A stretch of DNA of 64,000 nucleotides from assembly GCF_030295385.1 (NCBI RefSeq), contig NZ_AP027079.1:2728001-2792000 (forward strand). The letters are read 5' to 3'. The notes below the pieces were generated by a model. That model saw only the letters and a list, made by a program, of their open reading frames with translations. It did not search any database and was not told the DNA's origin. Positions 1,596-39,787 of this stretch are shown here, piece by piece (position 1 is the first letter of the stretch; each line of letters begins with the position of its first letter). Source of the DNA: Geothrix oryzae. Its GTDB lineage: Bacteria; Acidobacteriota; Holophagae; Holophagales; Holophagaceae. Both the position numbers and the translations under genes were made by a program.

Positions 1596-2639
1596 TCAGG
1601 CCAGTTCAGGGAGATGCCGCGGCGTGGGTGCGGACCAGTGCAGCCCCCCGGGCAGCAGGGCGTAGCGGTTCATGACGCCCGCCCAGCGGGCCAGCTCCGA
1701 CTCGCGCACGGTCCCCTCGGGTCCGCTGAGCGGAAGGCCGAGGAACTGGACAAAGTCCTGGACCTCGGCCCCGGAGATGCCCAGCAGCGAGGGCAGTCCA
1801 TCCAGCCCGTGGAGCCGGTCCCCTTCCGGAGGCGCGAGGAGCCGGTAGTCGAAGGTCTCCCGCAGCACCGAGGCCGTGGCCGCCGGATCCAGCTCCTGGG
1901 CGGCGTCCAGGTGGGGGAAGGGATTCCCCCCCATCAGGCCGAGGGCCTGGGCCATGCCGAGGTGGGCCAGGAGGTGGACGGGATGGATCTTCAGCACGGC
2001 CTCGAAGGTGGCGCGGGCCTCCTGGGCGCGGCCCAGGCGCAACAGGGCCTCGCCCTGGCGCAGGTGCGCCTCCACGCGTCCGGGCTCCGCCTTGATCCAC
2101 CGCTCCGCCACCGCGGCCATCTCCTCGGCCATACCCTGGGCCCGGAAGAAGCTGGCCAGGTAGGCGAGGCTGGCCACATCCTTGGGCGCCAGCAGCAGCA
2201 GGCGGTCCAGGATCTCGGCGGCGCGCAGGGTCTGCCCCTCCTGATCCAGCCGGTTGGCCCAGTCCCGGAGCACCTCCACCTGCCGAGGCACGGGATGGTT
2301 CGGGGTGGAGTGGGCCGGATCGGCGGGATGGAGCAGCTGGGTCCGCACCCACAGGTAGCGCAGGGGATTGCGCCCCTCGGGAGCGGCCAGTTCCTCTTCG
2401 ATGGCGTGGACGATCGTCTTGAGGCCATGCTCCCAAAGGGGGGGCACCGGCATCTGCACATGGGTCCGCAGCTCGCGGCTGAGAGGGTCCAGGGGGTTCC
2501 CCGTCCGGCCCAGGTGGAGCCTGAGACGGATCAACTCGAGGCCGGGGTCGGGGCCGGGCTGGAAGGCCACGCGCAGCGCCAACTCCCCGGTATCGGGGTC
2601 GAAATCGTCCAGGATCAGGAAGCGCAGGTGGGCCCGCAT
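1596..2639 (-). CDS. TPR-containing protein of unknown function
   Basis: This is a 347-residue cytoplasmic protein with no signal peptide. Residues ~150-270 hold three or four tetratricopeptide-like helical pairs, for example RAAEILDRLLLLAPKDVASLAYLA and EARATFEAVLKIHPVHLLAHLGMAQAL. The N-terminal ~140 residues (FLILDDFDPDTGEL...) and the C-terminal ~70 residues are not from a family I can name. TPRs usually mediate protein contacts; no enzymatic motif is seen. It is flanked by purC (same strand, 108 bases away) and a divergent barrel gene. Confidence 0.75.
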   Translation of the reverse strand: MRAHLRFLILDDFDPDTGELALRVAFQPGPDPGLELIRLRLHLGRTGNPLDPLSRELRTHVQMPVPPLWEHGLKTIVHAIEEELAAPEGRNPLRYLWVRTQLLHPADPAHSTPNHPVPRQVEVLRDWANRLDQEGQTLRAAEILDRLLLLAPKDVASLAYLASFFRAQGMAEEMAAVAERWIKAEPGRVEAHLRQGEALLRLGRAQEARATFEAVLKIHPVHLLAHLGMAQALGLMGGNPFPHLDAAQELDPAATASVLRETFDYRLLAPPEGDRLHGLDGLPSLLGISGAEVQDFVQFLGLPLSGPEGTVRESELARWAGVMNRYALLPGGLHWSAPTPRHLPELA

Positions 2640-2749
2640 CCCTGGAGGGTAGCAAAGTCGCCCGGACCGTACATCCTCGATCCAAAGGAGGTTGACCGGG
2701 TGGGGTTCCGGGCCGATGATGCAGTATTCGTCTGATTTGGAGGCTTCCC

Positions 2750-3340
2750 ATGCGAAAGACGCTGTTGTTCGTGCCCATGCTGGCCGTACTTCCAGCCTTC
2801 GGTGGCGAGGTGGGCCTCCTGCTGGACAAGCAGGTGGGCAAGGCCCAGGCCGCGTCGGGTGCCCTCGGCACTCAGAAATACGACGCCGTGAGCCCCACGG
2901 GTTTCGGCATCCGCGGGGGCTTCGATGTGCTCGACCTCAAGGTGGCCGCCCTCCAGGTGAATGCCACCTGGCACAACAAGACCACCGGCGACCTGACCTA
3001 TGGCGGCACCAAGTACGGCGAGCTGGAGAACCAGTACTGGGCCGCGGGCGCCATGGTGAACTGGAAGCTCCTCGTCAATGTGGGCGCCGGCGTGGAATAC
3101 CGCTCCGAGAAGCTCAGCTTCCGCCCCACCTCCGGGGCCAGCACCGACAGCACCCTGGGTCGTCCCTGGGCCCGGGTGAATGTGGGCTTCAGCATCCCCA
3201 CCCCCGTGGTGAGCCCCTTCTTCCTCTTCGAGGTGGCCGCGCCCCTCACCAAGAAGGACACCACCAACACGCGCCAGGATCTCACTGAAGCCCTGGCACC
3301 CCAGGTGCAGATCGGCGTCTACGGCGGCATCCGGTTCTGA
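2750..3340 (+). CDS. Putative outer-membrane beta-barrel protein
   Basis: This 196-residue protein has a short signal peptide (MRKTLLFVPMLAVLPAFGG, cleavage near residue 19). It then shows alternating amphipathic strands such as LQVNATWHN, WAAGAMVNWKLLVNVGAGVEYRS and ARVNVGFSIP, and it ends in Phe (GIRF), the usual C-terminal signature of BAM-inserted barrels. Size fits an 8-strand barrel. A GGAGG site seven bases before the ATG supports the start, and a terminator hairpin follows at 3359-3386. No function can be assigned. Confidence 0.75.
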   Translation: MRKTLLFVPMLAVLPAFGGEVGLLLDKQVGKAQAASGALGTQKYDAVSPTGFGIRGGFDVLDLKVAALQVNATWHNKTTGDLTYGGTKYGELENQYWAAGAMVNWKLLVNVGAGVEYRSEKLSFRPTSGASTDSTLGRPWARVNVGFSIPTPVVSPFFLFEVAAPLTKKDTTNTRQDLTEALAPQVQIGVYGGIRF

Positions 3341-3358
3341 TCCAGGCTCGCCGGGCGT

Positions 3359-3386
3359 GAAAGGGGCGCTTCCCGGCGCCCCTTTT
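3359..3386 (+). terminator. Rho-independent terminator after the barrel gene
   Basis: A GGGGCGC/GCGCCCC stem with a six-base loop is followed by TTTT, 20 bases after the stop of the barrel gene. It separates it from the phosphodiesterase gene downstream. Confidence 0.8.
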
Positions 3387-3418
3387 CCGTATGATGGAGG
3401 CTCATTCTCCGAGGGACG

Positions 3419-4180
3419 ATGGAACTCCGGATCCTGGGCTGCAGTGGCGGGGAAGCCGACGGCGAGCGCCTGACGGGGCTGCTGGTGAACGGCTGCGTGG
3501 CCATCGACGCGGGCTCCATCACGGCCGCCCTGACCGTGGCCGAGCAGGTGAAGATCCAGCATGTGTTCCTCAGCCACTCCCACCTGGACCACATCTGCAC
3601 GCTGCCCTTCTTCACCAAGAACATCTTCGGCCACACGCACGAGGCCGTGGAGATCCACGCCCTGCCCGAAACCCTCGATGTGCTTCGGCGCCATCTCTTC
3701 AACGACGAGCTGTGGCCCGACTTCAGCGTGATCCCCAGCCCCAACGATCCCACCATCCGCTACACGGAGATCGAGCCCGAGTGCTCGTACCATGTGTGCG
3801 GCCTCCACATCACCCCCATCCGCGTGAACCACCTGGTGCCCTGCGTGGGCTACAAGGTGGATGACGGGAAGGACGCCTTCATCTTCACCAGCGACACCGC
3901 CGAAACCGACCGCATCTGGGAGGTGGCCAACGCCACGCCGAACCTGCGGCTGGTCATCACAGAGGCCAGCTTCCCCAACGAGCAGGCCTGGCTGGCGGAA
4001 GCCTCCAAGCACCTCACCCCCGCCAAGCTGGGTGCCGAGCTCGCGAAGCTCCGTCGCGCCGTGCCGGTGCGGATCTATCATCTGACCCCCGGCGACAAAG
4101 CCACCATGCTGCCCCAGCTCGAGGCCCTGGGCGATGCCCGCGTCCGCCTGCTGACCCAGGACGAGCGGCTGGTCTGGTAG
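3419..4180 (+). CDS. Metallo-beta-lactamase-fold phosphodiesterase, class II cyclic-nucleotide PDE-like
   Basis: A 253-residue cytoplasmic enzyme of the metallo-beta-lactamase fold. The metal-binding motif LSHSHLDHICTLPFF matches the HxHxDH core and resembles the class II 3',5'-cyclic-nucleotide phosphodiesterase signature. Later ligands are probably in TSDTAETDR and the HLTP segment (YHLTPGDK). The N-terminus (MELRILGCSGG) is the usual first strand of the fold and fixes the start at ATG 3419. It could hydrolyse cAMP or another cyclic nucleotide or phosphoester; substrate cannot be read from sequence. The next gene is on the opposite strand. Confidence 0.75.
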   Translation: MELRILGCSGGEADGERLTGLLVNGCVAIDAGSITAALTVAEQVKIQHVFLSHSHLDHICTLPFFTKNIFGHTHEAVEIHALPETLDVLRRHLFNDELWPDFSVIPSPNDPTIRYTEIEPECSYHVCGLHITPIRVNHLVPCVGYKVDDGKDAFIFTSDTAETDRIWEVANATPNLRLVITEASFPNEQAWLAEASKHLTPAKLGAELAKLRRAVPVRIYHLTPGDKATMLPQLEALGDARVRLLTQDERLVW

Positions 4181-4213
4181 AAGCCGCCCCGCAGGTCTGA
4201 TCGGGGCAGATCG

Positions 4214-4570
4214 TCAGGGTTCCGGGAAGGCGCTCTCGAGCGCGACCAGAGCCTCCTCGTAGGCGGCCGGCAGGAGCCCTGCCAGCCCGCGCGCCGGGTC
4301 GAGGCGACCCTCACGGGCATGGACCTCGATCTGGGCGGCAAGGTCCGCGAATTTCTGCAGCCCGAGATTGCCCAGGGCCCCCTTCAGCTGATGGGCCTCC
4401 TGGATGGCCGTCGCGGCGTCTCCAGCGGCCAGAGCGGCCTGCACGGAGGCGACGCGGGGGGGCGCATCCTCCTTGAGAAGCCCGATCAGTTCCTGCACCA
4501 GCTCCGGTCCCGCCCCGATGTCGAGGAGGTCCCGCAGGGGCCGGGGATCGAGGATCAGCAGATCAGACAA
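4214..4570 (-). CDS. Orphan HPt (histidine phosphotransfer) domain protein
   Basis: This small protein (118 residues from TTG 4570) is a single HPt domain. The phospho-accepting motif HQLKGALGNLG has His at about residue 60, within a four-helix pattern (LVQELIGLLKEDAP, AHQLKG, KFADLAAQIE, AAYEEALVALESAF). HPt proteins relay phosphate between receiver domains. I chose the TTG at 4570 because GGAG lies five bases upstream; a TTG at 4588 would add six residues and has no such site. It follows atpC by 72 bases on the same strand, with a hairpin between them. No kinase is adjacent; the multi-receiver kinases at 59-63 kb are possible partners but that is speculation. Confidence 0.75.
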   Translation of the reverse strand: MSDLLILDPRPLRDLLDIGAGPELVQELIGLLKEDAPPRVASVQAALAAGDAATAIQEAHQLKGALGNLGLQKFADLAAQIEVHAREGRLDPARGLAGLLPAAYEEALVALESAFPEP

Positions 4571-4588
4571 GAGGTCTCCAGAAAGCAA

Positions 4589-4614
4589 GCGGATCCAGGG
4601 TCACCCGGATCCGC
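4589..4614 (-). terminator. Hairpin between atpC and the HPt gene, possible weak terminator
   Basis: GCGGATCC (4589-4596) pairs perfectly with GGATCCGC (4607-4614) around a ten-base loop. Read on the minus strand it lies after the atpC stop and is followed only by TTGCTTTC, so it may attenuate rather than fully terminate transcription into the HPt gene. Confidence 0.4.
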
Positions 4615-4642
4615 ATCGTCCGCCCGCTCGCGGCGGCCAGGC

Positions 4643-5065
4643 TCAGAAGCCGTGGCCGGCGGGGTGGCCCGCGGCCTGCAGGCGGGTGAGGCTGGCGTTG
4701 AGCTTGGCCTGGGCGGCGGCGATGTCGTGCTCCGTCTGGGCTTCCTTGAGGAGCGTGAGGGCCCGCTGGCGGGAAGCCTCAGCCCGCTCCAGATCGATCA
4801 TGTCCACCGTCTCGCTTTCGCGGGCCAGGATGGTGACGCGGTCGGGGCCCACCTCGGCGAAGCCGCCGAAGACCGTGATCCAGTGTTTCTGGCCTTCCTG
4901 GATGTAGTACAGGAGGCCGTCGCCGACTTCGGTCATCAGCGGCGTGTGGCCCGGCAGGATGCCGTAGTACCCGCGGGTGGCGGTGGGGAACTGCACCTCG
5001 GCCACCTCGGCCGAGAACACCGGCCGCTCCGGGGTCACCACTTCCAATTTGATGGTCTGAGACAT
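4643..5065 (-). CDS. atpC: ATP synthase F1 subunit epsilon
   Basis: A 140-residue epsilon subunit of F1Fo ATP synthase, part of the central stalk and an inhibitor of hydrolysis. The N-terminal beta-sandwich (KLEVVTPERPVFSAEVAEVQFPTATRGYYGILPGHTPL) is the family hallmark, followed by the two C-terminal helices (ERAEASRQRALTLLKEAQ). It is the last gene of the atp operon. A 12-bp perfect hairpin lies in its leader after atpD. Confidence 0.95.
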   Translation of the reverse strand: MSQTIKLEVVTPERPVFSAEVAEVQFPTATRGYYGILPGHTPLMTEVGDGLLYYIQEGQKHWITVFGGFAEVGPDRVTILARESETVDMIDLERAEASRQRALTLLKEAQTEHDIAAAQAKLNASLTRLQAAGHPAGHGF

Positions 5066-5083
5066 GGCGGGCTCTTTTCAAGG

Positions 5084-5111
5084 CTCGGAATCCGCCTGCG
5101 CGGATTCCGAG
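5084..5111 (-). promoter_or_regulatory. Intercistronic 12-bp hairpin between atpD and atpC
   Basis: CTCGGAATCCGC (5084-5095) pairs perfectly with GCGGATTCCGAG (5100-5111) around a four-base loop. It sits between the atpD stop and the atpC Shine-Dalgarno site. There is no U-run after it on the transcribed strand, so it looks like an mRNA stability or processing element rather than a terminator. Confidence 0.55.
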
Positions 5112-5127
5112 TTGGAGAAAGACAAGA

Positions 5128-6582
<1,455 letters not shown>

Positions 6583-7464
6583 TTAGGCGTTGGCGCCGGA
6601 CACGATCTCGATGATCTGGTTGGTGATGCTGGCCTGGCGGATCTTGTTCATGGTCAGGGTCAGCTTGGCGATCATGTCGCCGGCGTTGCTGCTGGCCTTG
6701 TCCATGGCCGCCATGCGGGCGCCATGCTCGGAGGCGCTGCTCTCCAGCAGGTTGCGGAGCAGCTCCGTCTCCACGAAGCGGGGCAGCAGGGTCTCCAGCA
6801 CCGCGTTGGGATCGGGTTCGAGCAGGTGGGACACTTCGACGGCATCGCGGCCTTCGGCACGGCGATCCAGCTCCATGGGGAAGACCCGGAACACCGTGGG
6901 CGTCTGCGCCACGGCACTGTTGAAGTAGTTGTAGATCACATAGAGCGCGTCGATCTCGCCCGCATGGTACTGGGCGGCGGCGCTTGCGGAGATCTCGGTC
7001 ACCACCCGCTGGAAGCCCGTGAGCGGGAGGCCGAGATACTCCCCGGCCGGTGTCATGTTGCGCTTCCGCGCCCATTCGGCCGCGCGCTTGCCCACCACAT
7101 CCAGATGGACGATCTCGGCGGGGCACTCGGCCACGAAGGCGTTGGCGGCCTTGAGCACATTGGCGTTGAAGCCGCCGCAGAGGCCCTTGTCCGAGGCCAC
7201 GAGAACCACGCGGATGCGCTTCTCCTCGCGGGGGGACAGGAAGGCCTGGGCGGCGGGGCCCGGCTGGATCTCGGCGTCACCCTTGATGCGGCCCACGACG
7301 CGGCGGACGACTTCCATCATCTTGCCGGCGTAGGGGCGCAGGGCCACCAGGCGCTCCTGAGACTTCCGCAGCTTGACCGCGGAGATCATCTTCATCGCTT
7401 TGGTGACCTGCTGGGTGTTCTTCACCGACCGGATGCGGCGGCGAATGTCCTGGAGACCGGCCAT
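6583..7464 (-). CDS. atpG: ATP synthase F1 subunit gamma
   Basis: The 293-residue gamma subunit forms the rotating central shaft. The N-terminal DIRRRIRSVKNTQQVTKAMKMISAVKLRK and the C-terminal NAGDMIAKLTLTMNKIRQASITNQIIEIVSGANA helices are diagnostic and would form the coiled-coil axle; the central domain includes SDKGLCGGFNANV. It begins four bases after the atpA stop, so the two are probably translationally coupled. Confidence 0.97.
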   Translation of the reverse strand: MAGLQDIRRRIRSVKNTQQVTKAMKMISAVKLRKSQERLVALRPYAGKMMEVVRRVVGRIKGDAEIQPGPAAQAFLSPREEKRIRVVLVASDKGLCGGFNANVLKAANAFVAECPAEIVHLDVVGKRAAEWARKRNMTPAGEYLGLPLTGFQRVVTEISASAAAQYHAGEIDALYVIYNYFNSAVAQTPTVFRVFPMELDRRAEGRDAVEVSHLLEPDPNAVLETLLPRFVETELLRNLLESSASEHGARMAAMDKASSNAGDMIAKLTLTMNKIRQASITNQIIEIVSGANA

Positions 7465-7468
7465 CGGA

Positions 7469-9073
<1,605 letters not shown>

Positions 9074-23298: not shown

Positions 23299-24990
23299 CT
23301 ACCAGCGCCAGGGGCCGGCCACCCGGAGGCCCCAGCGGAAGCTCTGCTCGCGATAGGTGTTCGGGTCGGTCACGCTTACCGCGTTCAGGCCCGAGGTGCT
23401 GTCGGACCAGCCGAGCAGCAGCGTGACGGGGCTGCGCCCGAGGCCCCAGCTCAGGTTCGCGGCGTAGCCCTTGCCCGTGGTCCAGGCCTGCTGATCCGTC
23501 ACCTGGCGCCCCCAGCGCCCCTCCACCAACAAGGCGAAGCGGCCGTTCTCGAAGGCCGCGGTGCCCGTGGCGCCATGGAAGAGGTAGTGCCTCGGATTCC
23601 AGAAGCCGAGCGGCAGCGTTTCCGAATAGCCCATGCCGCGGCTGGTGAGCCCGGCGGACAGGGTGATGGGCGAGAGGCGCCAGCGGTGCTCGTAGGCACC
23701 GCTCCAGGTGGTCCGGCGGTTCCCCGCGGAGACCGAGGCGGTGCCGGCCTGGAGCCGGAGGACATCCGCGAAGCCGGCCAGCGTGAAGGCCAAGTCCGTG
23801 CTCTGGATGCCGACCCGCTGAGCCACCGCCTGGGGCGTAAAGACGATCACGCTCCGGCCTTGGGTCAGGTTCACCTCCGCGCCATGCCCCAACCGCCAGA
23901 GAAGGCCCAGGCGATGGAACCCGGCGGGATCCCCGCCCAGCCCCGTGAGGCGGCCCAGATCGGCCGAGAGGCGCAGCGGTCCCAGGGGATAGGCCACGGT
24001 AGCGGCCGTCTCGTGCGCATCGGATTCCGCGCCGCTCAGTTCCGCGCGGTGCAGGGTGTGGCTCAGGCCGATGCTGCCATCCCCGAGGGGCAGCTTGGCG
24101 CGCACGGAGCTGTCCAGCATGCGCAGGGGCTCGCTGGTGAGGGTGCGGGTCTGGCCGATCTCCACCGAGGGGCCGTTCGCCTCGGCGGCGGCCCGGATCA
24201 GATCCTCCGCGTCCCGCTGCACGGGGCTGCCCTGCCGGGCCAGCGGCGTCAGCTGCGCCAGTGCCGCCCGCCGGCGGCCTTCCGCCAGCCGGACCTGCCC
24301 TTCCAGGAGTTTCCCTTCGGGCGTCTCGCGGGTCTCCTTCGGCAGCTGGTCCACTTCCACCCGGGCCTCCTCGACCCGGCCGCTCCACAGCGACACCTGG
24401 GCCAGCCCCAGGCGGGCATCCCCCAGATCGGGATGCTGGGCCACCAGCTGCTGGAAGGCCCCATGGGCCGCCCTCAGACGGCCATCCCAGCTCAGCACGC
24501 GGGCCTGCATGAGGAGGGCATCCCGATCCTTCGGGTGCGCGGCGATCCAGGTCGAGGTGCGGGCCAGCGACTCGCGGTAGCGGCCGGCCCAGCTCAGGTA
24601 CTTGGCGCTGTCGAGGATCGCCCAGCGCTCGCCCTTCTGGGCATAGGGCTCCAGGGTCGTGAGGGCCACCTCGAACTTCCGCCCCCAGCTCGCCATCATG
24701 GCCAGGTTCTGGTCCGCTTCCCGCGCCCGCCAGGGCGCGCGCTCCCGGAAGAGGCGCCAGGCCGTCACGCACTCCGGATACCGCTGGGCCCATCCCAGGG
24801 TCTGCGCCCGCTCGAAGAGGGCCGTCTCGTGCCAGCCATCCTTGGCCAGCAAGGCGTCGTAGCCCTTGATCGCCTCGTCCCAGTGGCTCTGGTTCCGCGC
24901 CTGCCGGGCCTGGGTGAGCAGGCGGCCCATCTCGGCGTCGCTGGGGGTCGGAGCCGCTTGCAGGGTGGCTGGGAACAGAAGGAGGATCAT
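23299..24990 (-). CDS. TPR plus outer-membrane beta-barrel protein (YaiO/PgaA-like exporter candidate)
   Basis: This 563-residue protein has a short signal peptide (MILLLFPATLQA), about seven TPR-like units (~20-290: WDEAIKGYDALLAKDGWHETALFERA, GRYRESLARTSTWIAAHPKDRDALL...), then a beta-rich domain (~300-563) with alternating strands and a terminal aromatic (GPWRW). TPR repeats followed by an outer-membrane barrel is the layout of PgaA, BcsC and YaiO-like proteins that pass polysaccharide through the outer membrane. Its ATG overlaps the stop of the upstream glycosidase-like gene (ATGA). It is the last gene of the minus arm of the polysaccharide cluster. Export function is inference from layout and neighbours. 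Confidence 0.75.
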   Translation of the reverse strand: MILLLFPATLQAAPTPSDAEMGRLLTQARQARNQSHWDEAIKGYDALLAKDGWHETALFERAQTLGWAQRYPECVTAWRLFRERAPWRAREADQNLAMMASWGRKFEVALTTLEPYAQKGERWAILDSAKYLSWAGRYRESLARTSTWIAAHPKDRDALLMQARVLSWDGRLRAAHGAFQQLVAQHPDLGDARLGLAQVSLWSGRVEEARVEVDQLPKETRETPEGKLLEGQVRLAEGRRRAALAQLTPLARQGSPVQRDAEDLIRAAAEANGPSVEIGQTRTLTSEPLRMLDSSVRAKLPLGDGSIGLSHTLHRAELSGAESDAHETAATVAYPLGPLRLSADLGRLTGLGGDPAGFHRLGLLWRLGHGAEVNLTQGRSVIVFTPQAVAQRVGIQSTDLAFTLAGFADVLRLQAGTASVSAGNRRTTWSGAYEHRWRLSPITLSAGLTSRGMGYSETLPLGFWNPRHYLFHGATGTAAFENGRFALLVEGRWGRQVTDQQAWTTGKGYAANLSWGLGRSPVTLLLGWSDSTSGLNAVSVTDPNTYREQSFRWGLRVAGPWRW

Positions 24991-27554
24991 GGCGCGCTCG
25001 GTTTGGGTTGGGCCGGAAGGGCGGCGAAGGCATCCCGGACGGCATCGAAGGCCTTCTTCCGGAAAGGATGCCAGCGGGGCTGCTCCCAGGTGGGCCAGGT
25101 GAAGAGGGGAGGGATGGGAATGCCGTTCCGGTTCGCGGCAGGCAGGGTTTCGAGAACCTCCGCCGGCCCCTCGGGCCCTTTGCGGCGCGTCCGCACCAGG
25201 CTGGCGCGGAATCCGTCGGTGGTCACCGAGCCGTGGTCCTCCATCGACAGCAGGTCCGCCGGATCCTGGAGCACGCGGCGCGAGCTTGGATCGGTGACAT
25301 GGATCAGCGTCCAGGGGATGCGGACTTCCAGGAACCCGGGGCCGTCCATCCATTCGCCCAGCGAATCGAAGGCGGGGTCGCGGCGGTCCTGGGTCCCCTT
25401 GTGCAGGGCCCCGATGTCGTAGCGGCGGGCCTGATAGACCGTCAGGTCCTGCCCCACCCGCAGGCGGTTGGTCTCCGTCTGCATCTGGCGCCAGGGGCCG
25501 TCTTCGTGGGCGATGGTGCGGGAAGGGCCCGGGTGGCGGTGGGGCGAGAACTCGTAGGGGGCGTCCACCCAGACGCCGCAGCTTTTCGCGGACAGTTCGA
25601 GGGTGAACTCCATTCCCGCACCGTTCCGCACGGGAACGCCGAAGGGGAAGCGGTGGTTGCCCAGGTCCGGCCCCAGGGTGTCCAGCCCCAGCAGGAAGGT
25701 GTCGCGGTTCCAGTCGACGGCCCCCTTCCAGAAGAGGCCCACATGGAACCAGCCCTCGTCGGCAAAGAGCTTCATCTCCAGATTCTCGTTCTTGAGGTAG
25801 GTGGGGATGTTCTTCCAGTCGTCGGCCCGGCCGTCGATGAGGATGTTCGGCCCCTTGGCCCCAGGATGATGCCCGATCAATCCGTAGTTCTCCTCCGCAT
25901 CCATGGCGTTGAACCAGAGGGGCTTCCGCTCGGGCGGCAGCTCGAGCGGCGAGACCTGCCAGGTCTTCTTGAACCACTCGTCCATCCAGGCGAAGACGAT
26001 GCTCCCGGCGTACCCCGTGTCGTAGATGTTCCGGATCAGGCGCTTCATCAGGCGGGCCTGGTCCTTCTCCTCGAGGCCCCCGTGGGTCATGCCCTGGGGC
26101 TGCCAGTGGGCCGGCATGCGGGAGGAACTGAGCCCGAACTCGGACACCAGCACCGCGTGCTTCTTGTGGTAGGCCCGGAGCTCCTTGAGATACCCCAGGT
26201 AGCTGTTGGGCCCCTCCTCGTCCCGAGCCTTCGCGTATCCGGCGTCGAGGTTGATGAACTCCGGATAGTTCGGATAGACATGGTAGCTCGCGAACAGCCC
26301 CCCCCTGAACGCCGGGAGATCCGAGAACTTCTCCATGTCGATGGACACGCTGTCGTCGTCGAAGACTTCGGACTTCACTTCCTCCGTATAGGGCAGGCCG
26401 AGTTTCTTCAGGATCCGCTGTTCCTCGAAAAACGAGGTCTCGCTGGGGTGCGTCATGGCGTCGAGCGTGGGCCAGTTGGTGAAGGCCACCGGCCGCTGCA
26501 CATGGTAGGTGTCGTGTTCGAGCCCGATGAAGGTGTCCAGGGCCTTGGCCATGAAGACTTCCGTCGCGTGGGCCCGGCGCACCTCCACGAACCGGCCCTT
26601 CCAGTCGGAATCGCCCGGATGCCGCCGGTTGTAGGCGATGACATTGAAGGGCTCCCATTCGCGGCCCAGGATCGTCCCGATCCACCAGCGGCTCACATCC
26701 GCGCGGTAATGGCCCCCGGCGGCCCCCGGCCGGGGCGGGAAGCTGGCGCGGCCGTGCATCAGGTCCACCACGCGCCGCATGTCCTCGCGGTAGGCCGCGA
26801 ACCAGACGGGATCGCCGAAGTCGTCCCCCGGCGGGGGCTCCACCCAGACGCCGTGCAGCAGGTAGATCGGGTGCGCCGCCTTGAGGTTGTGCTCTCGCAG
26901 GGCCTCGTAGAAGGCAGGAGGGTGGATGGTGTAGAGGCGGAGGGCGTTGATCCCGAGCTGCCCCATCTCCGCCAGCCACCCGGCATAGACCTCCTTGCCC
27001 GGGAATTCCGTGGGGAACCGCCCCGGCAGGGCCGCGCCCAGGTTCACCCCCTTCAGATACACGGTCTTCCAGCCCGCCCCATCGCGGATCTGGAAGCCGG
27101 CCGGAACAGTGCGGAAGGGCACCCGCAGCTCCGCGGGGAGAGGCGGAGGCGGGGGAATCGAGTCTTCCATCGGGGAGACCCGGGCCAGGAGGGTCTGGAA
27201 GTCCTCGCGGGCCGGATCGAGGCGCACCGCCTCCTTGGCCAGACGCCGGGCCTCGGCCGTTTTGCCCAGGCGTTCCTGGCACAGCGCCGAGCCATAGGCC
27301 GCATCCGCATAGGCGGGCGACAGCGCCAGCGCCCGTTGGAAATGGGCCAGCGCTTCCGGAATGCGCTCCTGGCGCAGGGCCGTGAACCCGGCTCCGACCA
27401 GGCCGTCCACATCCTGGGGCGCCTTGGCCAGCACGGCATCGAAGGCCTTCCGGGCCGCCTCCAGGCGATTCTCCCGGAGCAGCCGGTGGCCCTCGGCCGG
27501 ATCCTGGACGAGACCGGCCAGGGCCAGGCAGATGGGCAGCCAGGTCAGGGTCAT
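24987..27554 (-). CDS. TPR, glycoside-hydrolase-like and CBM9-like three-part protein
   Basis: This 855-residue protein has a short signal peptide (to about residue 17), then TPR units at ~20-125 (ARKAFDAVLAKAPQDVDGLVGAGF, ALAHFQRALALSPAYADAAYG), then a TIM-barrel-like domain at ~150-560. Candidate clan GH-A catalytic acids are the Glu residues of GREWEPFN and of LVSEFGLSSS; the region KGVNLGAALPGRFP is the typical first strand. Residues ~590-740 (ILIDGRADDWKNIP, a CBM9/DOMON-like start) form a sugar-binding-like sandwich. It may cut or trim the exported polysaccharide, as the glycosidase half of PgaB does. It overlaps the next gene by four bases and lies three bases after the deacetylase stop. 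Substrate unknown. Confidence 0.7.
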   Translation of the reverse strand: MTLTWLPICLALAGLVQDPAEGHRLLRENRLEAARKAFDAVLAKAPQDVDGLVGAGFTALRQERIPEALAHFQRALALSPAYADAAYGSALCQERLGKTAEARRLAKEAVRLDPAREDFQTLLARVSPMEDSIPPPPPLPAELRVPFRTVPAGFQIRDGAGWKTVYLKGVNLGAALPGRFPTEFPGKEVYAGWLAEMGQLGINALRLYTIHPPAFYEALREHNLKAAHPIYLLHGVWVEPPPGDDFGDPVWFAAYREDMRRVVDLMHGRASFPPRPGAAGGHYRADVSRWWIGTILGREWEPFNVIAYNRRHPGDSDWKGRFVEVRRAHATEVFMAKALDTFIGLEHDTYHVQRPVAFTNWPTLDAMTHPSETSFFEEQRILKKLGLPYTEEVKSEVFDDDSVSIDMEKFSDLPAFRGGLFASYHVYPNYPEFINLDAGYAKARDEEGPNSYLGYLKELRAYHKKHAVLVSEFGLSSSRMPAHWQPQGMTHGGLEEKDQARLMKRLIRNIYDTGYAGSIVFAWMDEWFKKTWQVSPLELPPERKPLWFNAMDAEENYGLIGHHPGAKGPNILIDGRADDWKNIPTYLKNENLEMKLFADEGWFHVGLFWKGAVDWNRDTFLLGLDTLGPDLGNHRFPFGVPVRNGAGMEFTLELSAKSCGVWVDAPYEFSPHRHPGPSRTIAHEDGPWRQMQTETNRLRVGQDLTVYQARRYDIGALHKGTQDRRDPAFDSLGEWMDGPGFLEVRIPWTLIHVTDPSSRRVLQDPADLLSMEDHGSVTTDGFRASLVRTRRKGPEGPAEVLETLPAANRNGIPIPPLFTWPTWEQPRWHPFRKKAFDAVRDAFAALPAQPKPSAP

Positions 27555-28474
27555 GGCGCGTGCTCCTTGAGGGCCGTCTTCCCGCCCTCCAGCAGGGCCT
27601 CCAGGCGCTGGACCTCCGCCACGAGCATGCGCCGCTTCCGCGCCAGGGCGCCGAGGTGGCTTTCGCTGTAGCCCATGGTCGACAGGTCTTCCGCGTAGAT
27701 GGGATCCCGGTAGGCCTCCTCCGGGCCCACCACCTTCCAGCCGTTCGCATCCAGCATCCGGAGCAGGTCTGGCATGACGAGGGCATTCAGGAGGTTGTGG
27801 TGGAGGAGGAGCGTGTGGACCGGATCCTTGCCGAGGAGCCGGTCGCCCAGGTCGCGGTAGCCCCGGAGGACCTCGTCCAGGTGCCGCAGGTAGAGGGTCC
27901 GGATGGGCGCGATGTCGGCTTCGGGCCGGGCCTGCAGCAGCAGCTGGAGGCGCTCATTGAAGAGCCAGTCGTAGGTCGGGATGCTCACCGGCGCGACGCC
28001 GTATCCCAGATCCTTCAGCATGGCCTGGGCGGCTCGCCGTTCCGCCCCCGCCCTTCCCTCGCGCAGGTACGGGAACCGCAGCATGGGCCAGTAGCCGGGA
28101 ACGCCGCGGATCAGGCGGTCCAGCTGAAGCACCTCTTCCTTGAATCGGGGCAGGCCGACCTCTTCGAGGTTGGGGTGACCGTAGGTGTGATTCCCGATGC
28201 GGTGGCCCGCCCGGCCCCAGGCCTCCAGCCACCGGATCCCCTCCGGGCTGTCCCCGCCGCGGATGCCGTTGGCAAAGAGGACCACGCGCACGCCCCTCTC
28301 CCGGAAGGCCTCCAGCAGGCGCCGGTTCCGTTCGTCGCCCGAAAGCCGCGGGGTCGAGCTGAGGTTGGGCCCGTCGTCCAAGGTGATGGACAGCGACTGG
28401 CCAGTCAGGACCGCGCAGCAGAAACCCCAGGCGACCGCCCGGATGAGGGCCCGGATGAGAGACGGGAAGCTCAT
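27551..28474 (-). CDS. NodB-family polysaccharide deacetylase
   Basis: This 307-residue protein (from ATG 28474) has a signal-like hydrophobic N-terminus and a CE4 deacetylase domain. SITLDDGPN holds the Asp pair (D33, D34) for catalysis and metal, HRIGNHTYGHPN holds the metal His pair, and LRFPYLREG is motif 3. The C-terminal ~50 residues are a charged helix. It would remove acetyl groups from an N-acetylated glycan in the periplasm. A GTG at 28495 could add seven residues. It overlaps the glycosidase-like gene by four bases and is divergent from the response regulator gene, 133 bases apart. Confidence 0.88.
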   Translation of the reverse strand: MSFPSLIRALIRAVAWGFCCAVLTGQSLSITLDDGPNLSSTPRLSGDERNRRLLEAFRERGVRVVLFANGIRGGDSPEGIRWLEAWGRAGHRIGNHTYGHPNLEEVGLPRFKEEVLQLDRLIRGVPGYWPMLRFPYLREGRAGAERRAAQAMLKDLGYGVAPVSIPTYDWLFNERLQLLLQARPEADIAPIRTLYLRHLDEVLRGYRDLGDRLLGKDPVHTLLLHHNLLNALVMPDLLRMLDANGWKVVGPEEAYRDPIYAEDLSTMGYSESHLGALARKRRMLVAEVQRLEALLEGGKTALKEHAP

Positions 28475-28607
28475 GGATGCGCGGCTCCGTCCCACGGGCG
28501 GGCGCAGTCCTGGACGGGGGCGTGGAATCCTCGTGTCATGGGGGAACCGGGTGCTCCTAATCCATGGAAATCGTCAGGTTTGATTCATACCTTGCTAGAC
28601 TTTTTTC

Positions 28608-29012
28608 ATGAGCCGACGCTGGCCCGAACATACCACGGTCCTGGTGGTCGAAGATGACCTCACGACCGCCCGGATCATTCAGGCCCGCCTGGAGATGGAG
28701 GGGCTGAAGGTGTTCGTGGCCCTCCATGGCGTGGAGGGCCTCGAGATCCTGAACCGCGAAGCCATCGACCTCATCACCACCGACCTCATGATGCCGTCCA
28801 TGAATGGCTTCCGGCTGGTCCAGGAAATCCGCGACCTCCCGCCCCCCAAGGGGCGCATCCCCATCCTGCTCATCTCCAGCAACCAGAATGAGCAGGACAT
28901 GGTCCGCTGCCTGGCGGCCGGGGCCGACGACTACATGATCAAGCCGATCTCCGTGCAGGTGCTCATGGAGCGGCTGTGGCGGCTCTTCGAACGCTCCCGC
29001 CGGGCGGGGTGA
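28608..29012 (+). CDS. Single-domain response regulator (receiver only)
   Basis: A 134-residue CheY-like receiver: VLVVEDDLTTARII has the acidic pair, D59 in LITTDLMMPSMNGF is the phospho-acceptor, and K112 in YMIKPIS is the conserved Lys. No output domain follows before the TGA at 29010. It is the first gene of the plus arm of the polysaccharide cluster, so it may control the glycosyltransferase or HEAT protein by contact. The cognate kinase is not nearby. Confidence 0.9.
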   Translation: MSRRWPEHTTVLVVEDDLTTARIIQARLEMEGLKVFVALHGVEGLEILNREAIDLITTDLMMPSMNGFRLVQEIRDLPPPKGRIPILLISSNQNEQDMVRCLAAGADDYMIKPISVQVLMERLWRLFERSRRAG

Positions 29013-29075
29013 TCCATCCTTCCCCTGTCCCAGGACCTCTTCCTTCCCGCGCTGCATGCGGCCACCGTCATCCTG

Positions 29076-30170
29076 GTGGCCCTGGTCTCCGGCCTGGTGC
29101 TGGTCGGGGCCATTCTGCAGGTGCGCCGGGACCGCCAGAACCGCCATCGCATCGCCTGCTACCAGGCCTGGGAAGTCCAGCTGACGGACTACCTCTTCAA
29201 GGGCGGCTACGAGCGCGGCTCCTTCGGGCCCATCCCGCACGCCGACCGTTGGCTCTTCCGGAATTTCCTGGCCCGCTACCAATCCACGCTGGCCGGGCAG
29301 GAATCCGAGGTCCTCCGCCAGCTCTACCTGGGCCTGGACATCCACCTCTCCCTCCCCCGCCGCCTCCGGAGCCGGGACCCCCGGGTCCGGGCCATGGCCG
29401 CCCAGGAGATCGGCGCCTTCCGGCTGGACGAACTCACCGAGACCCCGCCCCCGCCCGTCGCCGACCGGCCCTGGCGCTGGAATCCGGGCCTCCGCATCGA
29501 GGGCTACCTCAACCTGGTCCTGCCCCTCCTGGACGATCCCGTCCCCTATGTGGCGCATGTGGCGGCCCGGACCCTCACCCACAGCCAGGACCTGCGTTTC
29601 GCCAGCCCCGTCCTGGCCTGGGTCATGCGCGAGGAGGTCTACCAGCGCGAGCGCCTGCTGCGGGTCCTGGAGGGCTTCGGCCCCGGCCTGCTGCCCTGGA
29701 TGAAGGACCACCTCGAGTCCCCGGATCAGAACCCGGAACCCTGGATCCTCTTCGCGCTGCTGGTCGGCTCCCACCGGCACCGGGACTCCCAACCCCGCCT
29801 GCTCTGGCTGCTGGAGGTCCCGCATGTGAACCTCCGGGTCTCGGTCCTGAAGTCGCTCATCATCCTCGCGGACCCGACCATCTACCCCAAGGTGCTGCCT
29901 TTTGCCTCCAGCCCCGTCTGGGAGATCCGCACGCAGGCGGCCCGGGCCCTGGGCGTGCTCGGGGGACCCTCCGCCATTCCGGCCCTCCTCCCCCTGCTGG
30001 CCGATCGCGTGTTCGAAGTGCGCCGGAACGCGGCCCAGAGCCTCGTGGATCTCGGCCGGGCCGGTGTCTCGGCCCTGACCTGGATCGCCGAGGATGCCTC
30101 GGCGGACCGCTTCGCCCGGGACATCGCCCGCGAGCGGCTCGAGTGGGCGGATGAACGGGGTCACCTGTGA
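29076..30170 (+). CDS. Membrane-anchored HEAT-repeat protein
   Basis: One membrane span (starting before 29076: ATVILVALVSGLVLVGAIL) is followed by ~330 residues of HEAT-like helical repeats, clearest near the end (VWEIRTQAARALGVLGGPSAIPALLPLLADRVFEVRRNAAQSLVDLG). The frame is the same as the response regulator and is open from just after its TGA (29010-29012). I see no good ATG, GTG or TTG between that stop and GTG 29076, yet GTG 29076 would cut the membrane helix. A CTG at 29025, 14 bases after GGGGTGA, is possible. It ends in GTGA overlapping the glycosyltransferase start. Likely a scaffold of the synthase complex. Confidence 0.75.
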   Translation: MALVSGLVLVGAILQVRRDRQNRHRIACYQAWEVQLTDYLFKGGYERGSFGPIPHADRWLFRNFLARYQSTLAGQESEVLRQLYLGLDIHLSLPRRLRSRDPRVRAMAAQEIGAFRLDELTETPPPPVADRPWRWNPGLRIEGYLNLVLPLLDDPVPYVAHVAARTLTHSQDLRFASPVLAWVMREEVYQRERLLRVLEGFGPGLLPWMKDHLESPDQNPEPWILFALLVGSHRHRDSQPRLLWLLEVPHVNLRVSVLKSLIILADPTIYPKVLPFASSPVWEIRTQAARALGVLGGPSAIPALLPLLADRVFEVRRNAAQSLVDLGRAGVSALTWIAEDASADRFARDIARERLEWADERGHL

Positions 30171-31597
30171 GCTTCCGCGTATTCGTCACCGCCTTCGCCC
30201 AGTGGGGCATCCTCGCCTACTTCCTGGCCATGAACCTCACGCACCTGGGGCTGATCCTCCGGGCCTTCTTCTCCATCCGACGGCACCTGGACGAGGCCGA
30301 AACCGACCGCCTCGACACGGCCTTCGAGTCCAGCCACTTCAAGCCCATGTCCTTGATCTGCCCGGCCTACAACGAAGAGGCCGGCGTGGTGGCGAGCATC
30401 AACAGCCTGGTCAGCCTCCGCTACCCGGAGTTCCAGGTGGTGGTGGTGAACGACGGGAGCACGGACGCCACCCTCCAGCGGCTCATCACCGCCTTCAAGC
30501 TCCAGCCCAGCCACCGTGTGATCCGCCAGCTGCTCCCCACCCAGGAGGTGCTCGGCGTCTATGAAAGCGCCTATGTGCCCAACCTGGTGGTGGTGGACAA
30601 GGCGAACGGCGGCAAGGCGGACGCTTTGAACTGCGGCGTGAACCTGGCCCGGTATCCCCTGGTGTGCTGCATGGACGGGGACAGCCTCCTGGAGAACGAT
30701 GCCCTGCTCCGCATCGCGCGGCCCTTCATGGACCGGCCGGACCTGATCGCTTCCGGCGGCGTGGTCCGGCCCGTGAACGGCTGCAAGGTCACGCCCATGG
30801 GCATCCGCGGCATCTACCTCCCGGACTCCTGGCTGGCCCGGTTCCAGATCGTGGAGTATCTGAGAGCCTTCCTCTTCGCCCGGGTGGGGCTGGCTTCGCT
30901 GGACTCCCTGTTCATCGTCAGCGGCGCCTTCGGCGTCTTCCGGAAGGACCTGGTCGTGGCCGCAGGCGGGTTCGACACGGCCACCATCGGCGAGGACTTC
31001 GAGCTGGTCGTGCGCCTCCACCGCTGCCTGCGGGACTGGAAGCGCCCCCACCACATCGCCCTGGTGCCGGATCCCGTGTGCTGGACCGAAGTCCCCGAAC
31101 ATTTCAGGGAGCTGGGACGCCAGCGCAACCGCTGGCAGCGGGGCATGCTCGAGACCATCTGGCGGCACCGGCGCATGTGCTTCAACCCGAAGTACGGGCG
31201 CATCGGGATCTTCTCCATGCCCTATTTCCTCGTCTTCGAGGCCCTGGCCCCGATCATCGAGGTCGCCGGCTACCTCGTGTTCGCCGGGTCCCTCTGGACC
31301 CACTCGGTGGGTGGCACCTTCGCCCTCCTGTTCTTCTATGTCGCCCTCCTGCTCGGCGTGCTGAACTCCGTGGTGTCCGTGGTCCTCCACGAAATCAGCA
31401 GCCACCGCTACCAGGGCCTCAAGGCCTGGAGCATCCTATTGCTCCTCGCCGTGGCCGAGAACTTCGGCTACCGCCAGCTGACCCTCTGGTGGCGGCTGCG
31501 GGGTACCCTCGACTGGATCCGCGGGAAGGACCAATGGGGGCACCTGAAGCGCCTGGGGCTCACCACACACCCGGCCCCGAAGCCCCCCGAAGCTTGA
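30167..31597 (+). CDS. Processive family 2 glycosyltransferase
   Basis: This 476-residue inner-membrane synthase has an N-terminal span (WGILAYFLAMNLTHLGLIL), a cytosolic GT2 domain and about four C-terminal spans (to ~residue 450). The GT2 motifs are VVVNDGSTDATL, VCCMDGDSLLE (DxD), GEDFELVVRL and QRNRWQRGML (QxxRW), the set found in PgaC, BcsA and hyaluronan synthases that build long chains and pass them across the membrane. The GTG start overlaps the HEAT gene by four bases. With the deacetylase it suggests an N-acetylhexosamine polymer. No PgaD or PilZ domain is seen. Confidence 0.88.
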   Translation: MSFRVFVTAFAQWGILAYFLAMNLTHLGLILRAFFSIRRHLDEAETDRLDTAFESSHFKPMSLICPAYNEEAGVVASINSLVSLRYPEFQVVVVNDGSTDATLQRLITAFKLQPSHRVIRQLLPTQEVLGVYESAYVPNLVVVDKANGGKADALNCGVNLARYPLVCCMDGDSLLENDALLRIARPFMDRPDLIASGGVVRPVNGCKVTPMGIRGIYLPDSWLARFQIVEYLRAFLFARVGLASLDSLFIVSGAFGVFRKDLVVAAGGFDTATIGEDFELVVRLHRCLRDWKRPHHIALVPDPVCWTEVPEHFRELGRQRNRWQRGMLETIWRHRRMCFNPKYGRIGIFSMPYFLVFEALAPIIEVAGYLVFAGSLWTHSVGGTFALLFFYVALLLGVLNSVVSVVLHEISSHRYQGLKAWSILLLLAVAENFGYRQLTLWWRLRGTLDWIRGKDQWGHLKRLGLTTHPAPKPPEA

Positions 31598-31650: not shown

Positions 31651-31755
31651 GCGCTATCCAGAAAGGTGGAGGGAAAGGCCCTGTGAAACCTTGGCAACCT
31701 GCGAAAGCAAGGTGCCAACTCCTGCCTCCGGCGTCGCCGGGGGGAAGATACCGAA
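31651..31755 (+). promoter_or_regulatory. SAM-I (S-box) riboswitch upstream of the Hcy methyltransferase/MTHFR gene
   Basis: The S-box core is clear: CTATCCAGAAAGGTGGAGGGA, then GGCCCTGTGAAACCTTGGCAACC, then AAGGTGCCAACTCC, and a closing GAAGATACC. TATC (31655-31658) pairs with GATA (31747-31750) in P1, and a CTCCGGCGTCGCCGGGG hairpin forms P4. No U-run terminator follows. CCTGG at 31779-31783 could pair with CCAGG near the Shine-Dalgarno of the next gene, so control may be translational (inference). Ligand is S-adenosylmethionine. Confidence 0.9.
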
Positions 31756-31818: not shown

Positions 31819-33684
31819 ATGACCCATCCCACCTTCCAGCAGGCCCTCGACGCGGGCGAATGCTTCCTCTTCGACGGCAGCACCGCCACGGCCCTGCACG
31901 ACCGCGGGATCACGCTCCAGCGCAGCTTCGAGGAATGCAACCTCAAGGCGCCGGATCTGCTGCTGGCCATCCACGGGGAGTTCCTCGCGGCGGGCGCCCA
32001 GGTGCTCACCACCAACACCTGGGGCGCCGGACGCCTGAAGCTCGCGGCCCGGGGCCTCGAGGGGCAGATGGATGCCATCAACCGCGAGGGCATGGCCCTC
32101 GCGAAACAGGCCATCACCCAGCAGGGCGCCCGCGCCTGGGTGGCCGGCTGCATCGGTCCGCTGGGGGTGCGCATCGAGCCCTGGGGGCCCACCTCCTTCG
32201 ACGAGGCCCGCGCCCTGTTCCGCGAACAGGCCACGCCCCTGATCGAGGCCGGGGCCGACCTGATCGTCCTCGAAGCCTTCGAGGACCTCAATGAGATCCA
32301 CCAGGCCATCCTCGCCGTGCAGGAGCTCGGCGACCTCCCCATCGCCGCGCTGATGACCACCAATGACGAGGGTCAGGCCCTCTTCGGGGCCGAACCGGAC
32401 TGGTTCATCAAGCAGCTGGACACCTGGGGGGCTCATTTGGTGGGCCTCATCGGCGGCAACGGGCCGGCCCCCCACCTGCGCCTGCTCGAACGCCTGAAGG
32501 CCGTCACCGCCAAGCCCATCGTCCTCCAGCCGAACCCCGGCCTGCCCCATCTGGTGGATGGCCGCCTCATCTATGGCGCCAGCCCCGAGTACCTGGGCGG
32601 GTTCGCCGCCCGGGCCCTCGCCGCCGGCGCCCGGGGCGTGGGCGGGTGCAGCGGCACCACCCCTGCCCACATCCGCGCCATGCGCGGGGCCTTCCGCCAG
32701 GAGCGGGCCTTCGTCCAGGCCGGCGGCGGCTTCGAGCTGAAGCCCCACGAGCAGCCCCAGCCCGAGGTGCCCTTCGCCTACCGCAGCCGCTTCAGCCTCA
32801 AGCTGGCCCAGGGCGAGTTCACCTACACCGTGGAGCTGGTGCCCCCCAAGGGGATGGAGTACGACAAGCTCGTGGCCAAGACCCGCCAATGCCGGGCCCT
32901 GGGCGTGGACGCCATCAATGTGCCGGACGGCCCCCGCGCCATGGCCCGCATGTCCGCCCTGGCCACGGCCCTCATCATCGAGCAGCAGGTGGGGCTCGAG
33001 ACCATCCTCCACTACGCCTGCCGCGACCGGAACCTGCTCGGCATGCAGAGCGATCTTCTGGGCGCCGCGGGACTCGGCCTGCGCAACATCCTGGCCGTCA
33101 CCGGCGATCCGCCGAAGCTGGGGCCCTACCCCCAGGCCACCGCCGTCTTCGATGTGGACGCCATCGGCCTCGTGAACATGCTCAAGCGCCTGAACACAGG
33201 GCTCGATCTCGGCGGCGCCGGCATCGGCAAGCCCACCTCGTTCAGCGTGGGGGTGGGGGCCAACCCCGTGGCGGCGGACCTGGACCGCGAGAAGGCCCGC
33301 TTCCGCTACAAGGTGGAGGCCGGCGCCCAGTGGGCCATCACCCAGCCCGTCTTCGACGCCGACACCCTGTTCCGCTTCCTCGACTTCACCGAGGCCCTCG
33401 ACGGCAAGGGCGGCGTGCCGATCATCGCGGGCATCTGGCCCCTCAAGAGCCTGCGCAACGCCGAGTTCATGGCCAACGAGGTGCCCGGCGCCTTCGTGCC
33501 GCCCTCCGTGCTCACCCGCATGGCGAAGTGGACCCGCGCCGAGGATCAGGTCAAAGAGGGCCTCGCCATCGCCCAGGAAGTCATCGAGATCATCCGTCCC
33601 CGCGTCCGGGGCCTCCAGCTCAGCGCCCCCTTCGGCCAGGTCGAGCTCGTGGCGCCGCTCCTGCCCAAGCGGGAGGACGCATGA
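31819..33684 (+). CDS. Homocysteine S-methyltransferase / methylenetetrahydrofolate reductase fusion with altered zinc ligands
   Basis: This 621-residue protein has an N-terminal homocysteine-methyltransferase barrel (~1-300) and a C-terminal MetF-like domain (~320-600: YTVELVPPKGMEYDKLVAKT, HYACRDRNLLGMQSDLLGA, ITQPVFDADTLFRFLD). MetF reduces 5,10-methylene-THF to 5-methyl-THF. In the first domain the first zinc Cys region reads LIGGNGPAP instead of a GxNCxxGP pattern (Gly212 where Cys is expected). The second reads GGCSGTTPAHI (C277, Ser278) instead of GGCCGTTP. Only one of three usual Cys ligands remains, so the methyltransferase half may be inactive or use other residues. It follows a SAM-I riboswitch. 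Confidence 0.85.
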   Translation: MTHPTFQQALDAGECFLFDGSTATALHDRGITLQRSFEECNLKAPDLLLAIHGEFLAAGAQVLTTNTWGAGRLKLAARGLEGQMDAINREGMALAKQAITQQGARAWVAGCIGPLGVRIEPWGPTSFDEARALFREQATPLIEAGADLIVLEAFEDLNEIHQAILAVQELGDLPIAALMTTNDEGQALFGAEPDWFIKQLDTWGAHLVGLIGGNGPAPHLRLLERLKAVTAKPIVLQPNPGLPHLVDGRLIYGASPEYLGGFAARALAAGARGVGGCSGTTPAHIRAMRGAFRQERAFVQAGGGFELKPHEQPQPEVPFAYRSRFSLKLAQGEFTYTVELVPPKGMEYDKLVAKTRQCRALGVDAINVPDGPRAMARMSALATALIIEQQVGLETILHYACRDRNLLGMQSDLLGAAGLGLRNILAVTGDPPKLGPYPQATAVFDVDAIGLVNMLKRLNTGLDLGGAGIGKPTSFSVGVGANPVAADLDREKARFRYKVEAGAQWAITQPVFDADTLFRFLDFTEALDGKGGVPIIAGIWPLKSLRNAEFMANEVPGAFVPPSVLTRMAKWTRAEDQVKEGLAIAQEVIEIIRPRVRGLQLSAPFGQVELVAPLLPKREDA

Positions 33685-38256: not shown

Positions 38257-39787
<1,531 letters not shown>

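Follow-up and report, generated by a model that had tools for sequence, protein, structure and literature searches.

The six genes described here lie at positions 23299-31597 of a 64,000-nucleotide window (2,728,001-2,792,000 of the single-contig, 3.27 Mb genome of Geothrix oryzae, Acidobacteriota), and very probably encode a synthase-dependent exopolysaccharide machine. They form two divergent arms. The minus-strand arm consists of the genes for a NodB-type polysaccharide deacetylase (27551-28474), a protein with tetratricopeptide repeats (TPRs) and a putative glycoside hydrolase (GH) domain (24987-27554) and a TPR-barrel exporter (23299-24990), and the plus-strand arm of those for a receiver-only, CheY-like regulator (28608-29012), a membrane-anchored HEAT-repeat protein (29013-30170) and a family 2 glycosyltransferase (GT2) (30167-31597). 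All six open frames were found where an earlier interpretation made from the letters alone (the sequence-only reading) had placed them, on the same strands, and the coordinates bear out its 133-base gap between the arms (28475-28607) and its 4-base overlaps of deacetylase with GH and of GH with barrel genes; the HEAT and GT2 genes likewise overlap by 4 bases. Pfam also recognizes TPRs among the six products.

This set is not a chance grouping, because it recurs in distant genomes amid different surroundings: between Geothrix and other families the flanking genes vary while the gene set stays. When 297 Acidobacteriota genomes were searched with the GH protein, three candidates being scored per genome, 270 gave matches at E ≤ 1e-3, mostly to the TPRs only, and at least 30 had matches to the GH domain; the phylum set used below comprises 29 GH loci besides the window's own. 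GT2 matches at E ≤ 1e-30 were found in 81 of the 297 genomes, and the comparison covered 36 further GT2 loci, each matching at about 1e-93 or better. A second, named-genome set consists of the best 80 of at least 584 relatives matching the GH alignment, at least six of which (L130-L133, L138 and L152) also belong to the phylum set. These best 80 are from Bacillota (34), Gemmatimonadota (16), Acidobacteriota (9), Bacteroidota (5), Thermodesulfobacteriota (3) and eight phyla with one or two each, with two loci bearing no phylum label; Geobacteraceae and Nitrospirota are among the lineages represented. The GT2 gene lies within five genes of the GH gene in all 23 phylum loci that have both and in all 53 such loci among the best 80, and several of the loci without GT2 in the latter set are short contigs. 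The usual order in Acidobacteriota is GH, barrel, receiver, HEAT and GT2, with L048 and L058 ordered differently. The sequence-only reading depended on homologous loci keeping these genes together, and the set does remain together across Acidobacteriota and deltaproteobacteria. We regard it as a widely conserved and apparently undescribed synthase-dependent polysaccharide system; a search of open-licence full-text literature found no description of it, which is weak evidence of novelty. In other families two candidates for divergent upstream partners, c6 and c7, were read by eye as DprA and TopA, both housekeeping genes, and were set aside. In two Thermus loci (L155 and L163) the covered stretch around the GH relative bears no label for a GT2, a HEAT protein or a barrel, and the GH relative of L155 adjoins an AMP-binding (acetyl-CoA synthetase-like) gene.

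The GT2 (476 residues) matches the Pfam GT2 family at 3.5e-20 and contains DGS, DGD (170), GED (275) and QRNRW (319), motifs whose meanings we take to be those usual for such enzymes. From the QxxRW motif we infer that this inner-membrane synthase is processive. Its best NCBIfam model is TIGR03937 (PgaC_IcaA) at 135.4 bits, against a cut-off of 422.3, and it does not qualify as a PgaC/IcaA protein; the CelA model gave 36 bits. Among its profile matches in the PDB are cellulose synthase and, over profile positions 60-371, hyaluronan synthase.

A route across the outer membrane is suggested by the exporter gene (563 residues), the predicted structure of which (pLDDT, the predicted local distance difference test, 90.6) consists of 16 TPR-type helices followed by a 16-stranded β-barrel. 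The top five PDB matches returned by Foldseek were three BcsC structures, PgaA (4y25, template modelling score on target 0.80) and PelB (9h80), and comparison in VIA gave Z 27.0, 3.6 Å and 328 aligned residues for BcsC (6tzk) and Z 26.3, 2.6 Å and 275 for PgaA (4y25). The TPR-plus-barrel assignment of the sequence-only reading is thus upheld by the model, which has the TPR-scaffolded, 16-stranded outer-membrane barrel of synthase-dependent systems, and we predict that the product is a polysaccharide export channel like BcsC, PgaA and PelB. PF21197 (PgaA_barrel) was matched at E ≤ 0.1 by eight of 17 family members, with 6.3e-7 as the best value, but not by the window protein. Among the GT2-bearing loci of the best 80, a barrel gene lies nearby in 24 of 26 from outside Bacillota, the other two both being Acidobacteriota, versus none of the 27 from Bacillota, and its presence in diderm but not Bacillota loci is as expected of an outer-membrane exit. 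In Gemmatimonadota of the best 80 the barrel gene or one arm is often flipped.

The adjacent 855-residue protein is a probable periplasmic glycosidase. In its model (pLDDT 82.9), seven helices open the chain, the TPR helices lying at about residues 19-126; a TIM barrel of eight strands, (β/α)8, follows at about 135-590, and the C-terminal domain, at about 590-850, is rich in beta structure. The fold search was topped by GH157 chains complexed with laminaribiose or laminaritriose (VIA Z 29.4, 2.7 Å, 308 aligned), and the GH2 comparison gave Z 26.2, 3.3 Å and 291 aligned, with GH2 enzymes at about 26. In clan GH-A, strands 4 and 7 each end with a catalytic glutamate, the acid/base and the nucleophile; in the model, E299 comes after strand 4 (291-296) and E472 lies inside strand 7 (467-473), and both are invariant in all 110 aligned rows (the window, the 29 phylum loci and the 80 named loci), which comprise 105 different sequences and form 104 clusters at 97%. 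What the sequence-only reading called GH-like is therefore, as far as the predicted fold tells, a clan GH-A barrel with its catalytic pair in place. By sequence the protein is isolated: Pfam gave no match at E ≤ 1 for the GH and C-terminal domains of the window protein, searches of Pfam, NCBIfam and PDB sequences supplied no usable family for either, the structural comparison covering the families listed by VIA, and the family profile run against PDB sequences at E ≤ 10 gave one match, not a glycosidase, and hence no detectable similarity to GH157. For the C-terminal domain, proposed earlier to resemble carbohydrate-binding module family 9 (CBM9), the sole PDB sequence match of its profile is indeed the CBM9 of xylanase 10A; this match is weak (E = 0.83), just a hint, and Pfam returned no CBM row for the domain. 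At L058 (7841-10689) the protein is divided between two genes, one for the TPR and GH part and one for the C-terminal part with its own initial hydrophobic segment, a sign that this domain may form a module of its own.

The window deacetylase (307 residues; 314 from an alternative GTG start at 28495, a form with a hydrophobic stretch at 13-31) matches Polysacc_deac_1 (PF01522) at 7.3e-13 and carries DDG, HTYGH, DW and LHH, which we take to be the NodB-type motifs. Its best NCBIfam rows are a PgdA-type peptidoglycan deacetylase (1.3e-10, far below cut-off) and NodB (1.6e-8); NCBIfam returned no PgaB row, and it is not of PgaB type. A second NodB paralogue is encoded elsewhere in the genome. Together, the deacetylase motifs and the GH-A catalytic pair predict periplasmic enzymes that modify or cleave a polymer. 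A NodB gene adjoins the GH gene, by coordinates, in nine of the 20 GH-bearing Geothrix genomes (G000, G040, G236, G276, G297, G298, G303, G304 and G307), and in G310 and G313 its place is taken by a YdjC-type deacetylase. One YdjC-type gene, at L214 (3540-4484, opposite strand), matches PF04794 at 3.6e-54 and has a 79% identical counterpart in L216. A third type, a Polysacc_deac_1 protein of 256-264 residues between GH and barrel genes, occurs in L154, L157, L161 and L164, from Geobacteraceae, other deltaproteobacteria, Thermodesulfobacteriota and Nitrospirota; the two that were run, from L154 and L164, match PgaB/IcaB models (TIGR03938, 6.7e-39 and 6.1e-39). Deacetylation thus recurs by three enzyme types (NodB, PgaB/IcaB-like and YdjC), yet is not universal, and the deacetylase is an accessory, optional member of the system. 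Within Geothrix, a TPR-bearing GH is found in 12 of the 20 genomes, 11 with an adjacent deacetylase and one (G299) that stops at a contig edge, and a TPR-less GH in the other eight, none with an adjacent deacetylase (upstream of G133 is not visible), an association that probably reflects one evolutionary event. We do not press the link as a general rule, as other families have TPR-bearing GH genes without a deacetylase.

The plus arm begins with the receiver (134 residues), in which Response_reg (PF00072, 7.3e-27) is the sole domain, as the earlier description of a receiver-only regulator had it; the phospho-acceptor Asp59 is retained and nearly invariant in 16 rows. The HEAT protein has an N-terminal hydrophobic segment (peak 2.74, residues 17-35) and C-terminal HEAT repeats (HEAT_2, PF13646, 2.6e-17). 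Its frame opens directly past the receiver stop, and the first in-frame ATG, GTG or TTG is a GTG at 29076, within the membrane segment; in the Geothrix relatives L034 and L040 an ATG lies upstream of the matching position, and we are unsure of the true start, a non-standard one being possible. The HEAT gene is directly upstream of GT2 in all 23 phylum GH loci with a near-full GT2, in 35 of the 36 further Acidobacteriota GT2 loci and in 43 of the 52 loci with a visible upstream gene among the best 80, the nine exceptions including four Bacteroidota loci, L197 (a split GT2 call) and L165 (a regulator instead). Elsewhere the regulators are larger, with Hpt and two receivers in L095, L096, L098 and L108 and GGDEF plus a receiver in L106. 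The Bacillota locus L173 (4783-15305) represents the monoderm form, with a regulator, HEAT, GT2, GH, receiver and hybrid histidine kinase, like other Bacillota loci; its GH relative is longer at the N-terminus (1077 residues), and its regulator, the one from Bacillota checked in Pfam, is Hpt-REC-GGDEF-REC.

How the synthase is controlled was a further point of the sequence-only reading, in which PgaD was absent and the HEAT protein and the CheY-like regulator replaced control by PilZ and cyclic di-GMP (c-di-GMP). PgaD (PF13994) indeed gave no match genome-wide, with an E. coli control positive. PilZ has eight matches in the genome, seven above cut-off, none of them at 2752990-2759594 and the nearest about 45 kb away. 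The replacement of PilZ was misconceived as a comparison with Pga, which according to excerpts from PMC8461298 has no PilZ and binds c-di-GMP through PgaC and PgaD. As to the loss of c-di-GMP control, the locus is free of PilZ as stated, but of the 23 regulators that immediately precede HEAT in Bacillota of the best 80, 13 carry GGEEF, so that c-di-GMP may still act in the family.

Divergent transcription, presented earlier as characteristic of the cluster, can be ruled out as a design feature, given that relatives are mostly co-directional (22 of 23 phylum loci, 49 of 53 among the best 80 and three of five extra genus loci). The divergent loci are those of the window lineage (L033, L127 = L217, and L218) and the Gemmatimonadota loci L139, L147 and L153, in which the arms are rearranged too. 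In G236 the order on one strand is PDH-like gene, deacetylase, GH, barrel, receiver, HEAT, GT2 and methionine gene (flank names, including CBS, PDH-like and methionine genes, were assigned by eye). The same flanks enclose a reversed deacetylase-GH-barrel block in the window, G040 and G297, and the contig-cut G307 has the same divergent start; the comparison thus explains the window layout by one local inversion of this block, one junction of which falls in the 133-base spacer. When the block was searched for inverted repeats, five short pairs turned up, but not one of them lies where the block begins and ends; an Rfam scan at gathering scores found no riboswitch in the spacer. The only regulatory RNAs in the window, both outside the six genes, are two S-adenosylmethionine (SAM) riboswitches on the plus strand, one (31651-31754) directly after the GT2 gene and before a methionine-related gene at 31819, and one (38267-38375) preceding a gene at 38498.

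The same receiver-HEAT-GT2 core is accompanied by an alternative cassette in GH-less members of the genus and family (L091-L094, L208 and L209). This cassette encodes a protein of 302-326 residues, a TPR protein, a sulfatase-superfamily membrane protein of 818-835 residues and a TPR protein with a YaiO-type barrel (PF19413, 2e-59 in L091); the first of these, in L091, has no Pfam match and by eye is TIM-barrel-like. At L091 the cassette (2196-7720) sits between flanks, 80-93% identical, that enclose the GH cassette in sister genomes, and in L094 the same flanks enclose it with the core reversed. On a tree of 33 GT2s, hand-chosen from a larger collection, explaining the GH and sulfatase labels takes five changes (shuffled mean 8.9), at least three of them forced by well-supported branches, and G161 (GH) neighbours G185 (sulfatase) with support of 87/89, under the starred level. 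We are unsure of the number and direction of exchanges, because the labels are clustered, forks within Geothrix are unresolved, the gene behind the sulfatase label of L102 is partial and L095 sits on a long branch.

The GT2, the barrel and GH folds and the conserved linkage support the claim, made first by the sequence-only reading, of a synthase-dependent polysaccharide system. Excerpts from PMC9384988 present Pga and Pel as models, with a synthase, periplasmic editing, a TPR scaffold and a barrel exit, and by analogy a working scheme can be drawn. Kept together with the membrane HEAT protein, perhaps by direct contact, the GT2 would polymerize a beta-linked sugar chain and translocate it over the inner membrane; in the periplasm the chain would be partly deacetylated by the NodB enzyme and trimmed or proof-read by the GH-A enzyme; the TPRs of the GH and barrel proteins would scaffold these enzymes, and the chain would exit via the 16-stranded barrel. 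HEAT may hold or gate the synthase, with the phosphorylatable receiver switching HEAT and so, probably, gating the synthase. An N-acetylhexosamine is the likeliest sugar, giving a PNAG (poly-N-acetylglucosamine)- or chitin-like polymer, because the GT2 is near PgaC/IcaA and deacetylases recur.

Several observations weigh against this interpretation. It is built from sequence comparison and predicted folds, the latter computed for single proteins as monomers. The GT2 falls so far under the PgaC cut-off that the sugar could be another hexose. A deacetylase gene adjoins the GH gene in 11 of the 20 GH-bearing Geothrix genomes, and one lies within two genes of it in six of the best 80 loci, a pattern count that misses some. 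HEAT is not universal, being found in none of the four Bacteroidota loci of the best 80, two of which have a receiver gene near. Also among the best 80, GH relatives from Thermus (two) and a cyanobacterium (one) lack a GT2 in the stretch covered. Finally, distribution within Geothrix is patchy: of 47 genomes, many of them incomplete, 27 have the GT2 and 20 the GH.

Among the alternatives, a divergent PNAG (pga/ica) system, in which the GT2 is PgaC, the barrel PgaA, the deacetylase and GH a split PgaB, and HEAT stands in for PgaD, is the one that survives best, and we judge it unlikely. PgaC_IcaA is the best GT2 family, the barrel fold is close to PgaA, the L154 and L164 deacetylases match the PgaB deacetylase domain (6.7e-39 and 6.1e-39), and pgaD-less pga-like loci and GH-less PgaB clades are on record (excerpts from PMC7112194). 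Against these stand the 135 bits of the GT2 versus a cut-off of 422, the match of the Geothrix deacetylase to PgdA/NodB and not PgaB models, the clan GH-A fold near GH157 and GH2, the many relatives without deacetylase and the replacement of the GH cassette by a sulfatase-like one in related loci.

We consider it improbable that the polymer is a cellulose- or laminarin-like glucan. The thought arises from the closest glycosidase fold, GH157, solved with laminari-oligosaccharides, but fold likeness across clan GH-A tells little of substrate, the GT2 is closer to PgaC/IcaA (135 bits) than to CelA (36 bits), and the three deacetylase types recur near GH. Envelope biogenesis commonly involves GT2s and NodB enzymes, and among NCBIfam models the deacetylase scores best with one for peptidoglycan deacetylases (1.3e-10, far below cut-off); that the two enzymes act on a lipid-linked or cell-wall glycan with no secreted polymer is nevertheless very improbable, given the QxxRW processive motif and a BcsC/PgaA/PelB-type barrel in the operon that lies near in diderm but not Bacillota loci.

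With a synthase-dependent exopolysaccharide machine as the preferred interpretation, a broader proposal can be made tentatively, at a little short of even confidence: that these loci constitute a separate, phylum-spanning class of system, with a fixed receiver-HEAT-GT2 core, a phospho-receiver acting via HEAT in place of PgaD/PilZ-type c-di-GMP gating, a barrel-less monoderm form, and interchangeable cassettes (deacetylase, GH-A and TPR-barrel, or TIM-barrel-like, TPR, sulfatase/phosphotransferase-like and YaiO barrel) swapped at one chromosomal site. If our interpretation is right, a sizeable minority of Acidobacteriota and members of at least a dozen other phyla, including many Bacillaceae, carry an unnamed biofilm-polymer machine and perhaps an overlooked polymer route, with a glycosidase outside any Pfam or NCBIfam family. 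It would show a way of gating a processive synthase, other than by PgaD/PilZ, that can be put to the test, and the occurrence of both cassettes within one genus would be a natural experiment on the effect of processing enzymes on the polymer.

Precedents for single parts of the locus can be named. The glycosidase shares the clan GH-A barrel of GH157 (LaGH157; Z 29.4) and GH2 beta-glucuronidase (Z 26), and differs in that no PDB glycosidase chain matches the profile of its family by sequence at E ≤ 10. Excerpts on Clostridium perfringens NELoc-2 list CP4_0466-0468 as a hypothetical protein of 685 residues, a HEAT protein of 377 and a GT2 "chitin synthase" of 466 (PMC2879425, PMC11677781), resembling the clostridial L193, which has GH (710), HEAT (386) and GT2 (470) in that order. 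NELoc-2 is known to us as gene lists, the likeness is one of lists and lengths, and the 685-residue gene may be a deacetylase and not a GH, a deacetylase being listed in the locus in excerpts from the later paper (PMC11677781).

Cellulose (BcsC/BcsA) and Pel (PelB/PelA) systems share with the Geothrix locus a TPR and 16-strand secretin (Z 26-27), a glycosyltransferase and a periplasmic hydrolase; the locus differs in its hydrolase, which is of another kind, and in that neither Pfam nor NCBIfam returns a row for PilZ, BcsB or a Pel-type protein among the six products. The likeness to PgaABCD/IcaADBC extends to the PgaC-like GT2, the TPR and 16-strand barrel and the predicted deacetylase and glycosidase activities. 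Excerpts from PMC7112194 attest pga-like loci without pgaD and PgaB clades without a GH domain, and the Geothrix locus departs further: the deacetylase and GH are on separate genes, as the sequence-only reading had noted, the GH is of clan GH-A and near GH157/GH2 by fold, HEAT and receiver genes are in the operon while PgaD is absent from the genome, and the GT2 is well below the PgaC_IcaA cut-off. Because PgaD is absent, the nearest PilZ is about 45 kb away and the GT2 is under the PgaC cut-off, the locus is, by these sequence tests, not a pga system, though it would work like one; relative to Pga and Pel, the new element is the coupling of a HEAT gene to that of the synthase, with a receiver before it.

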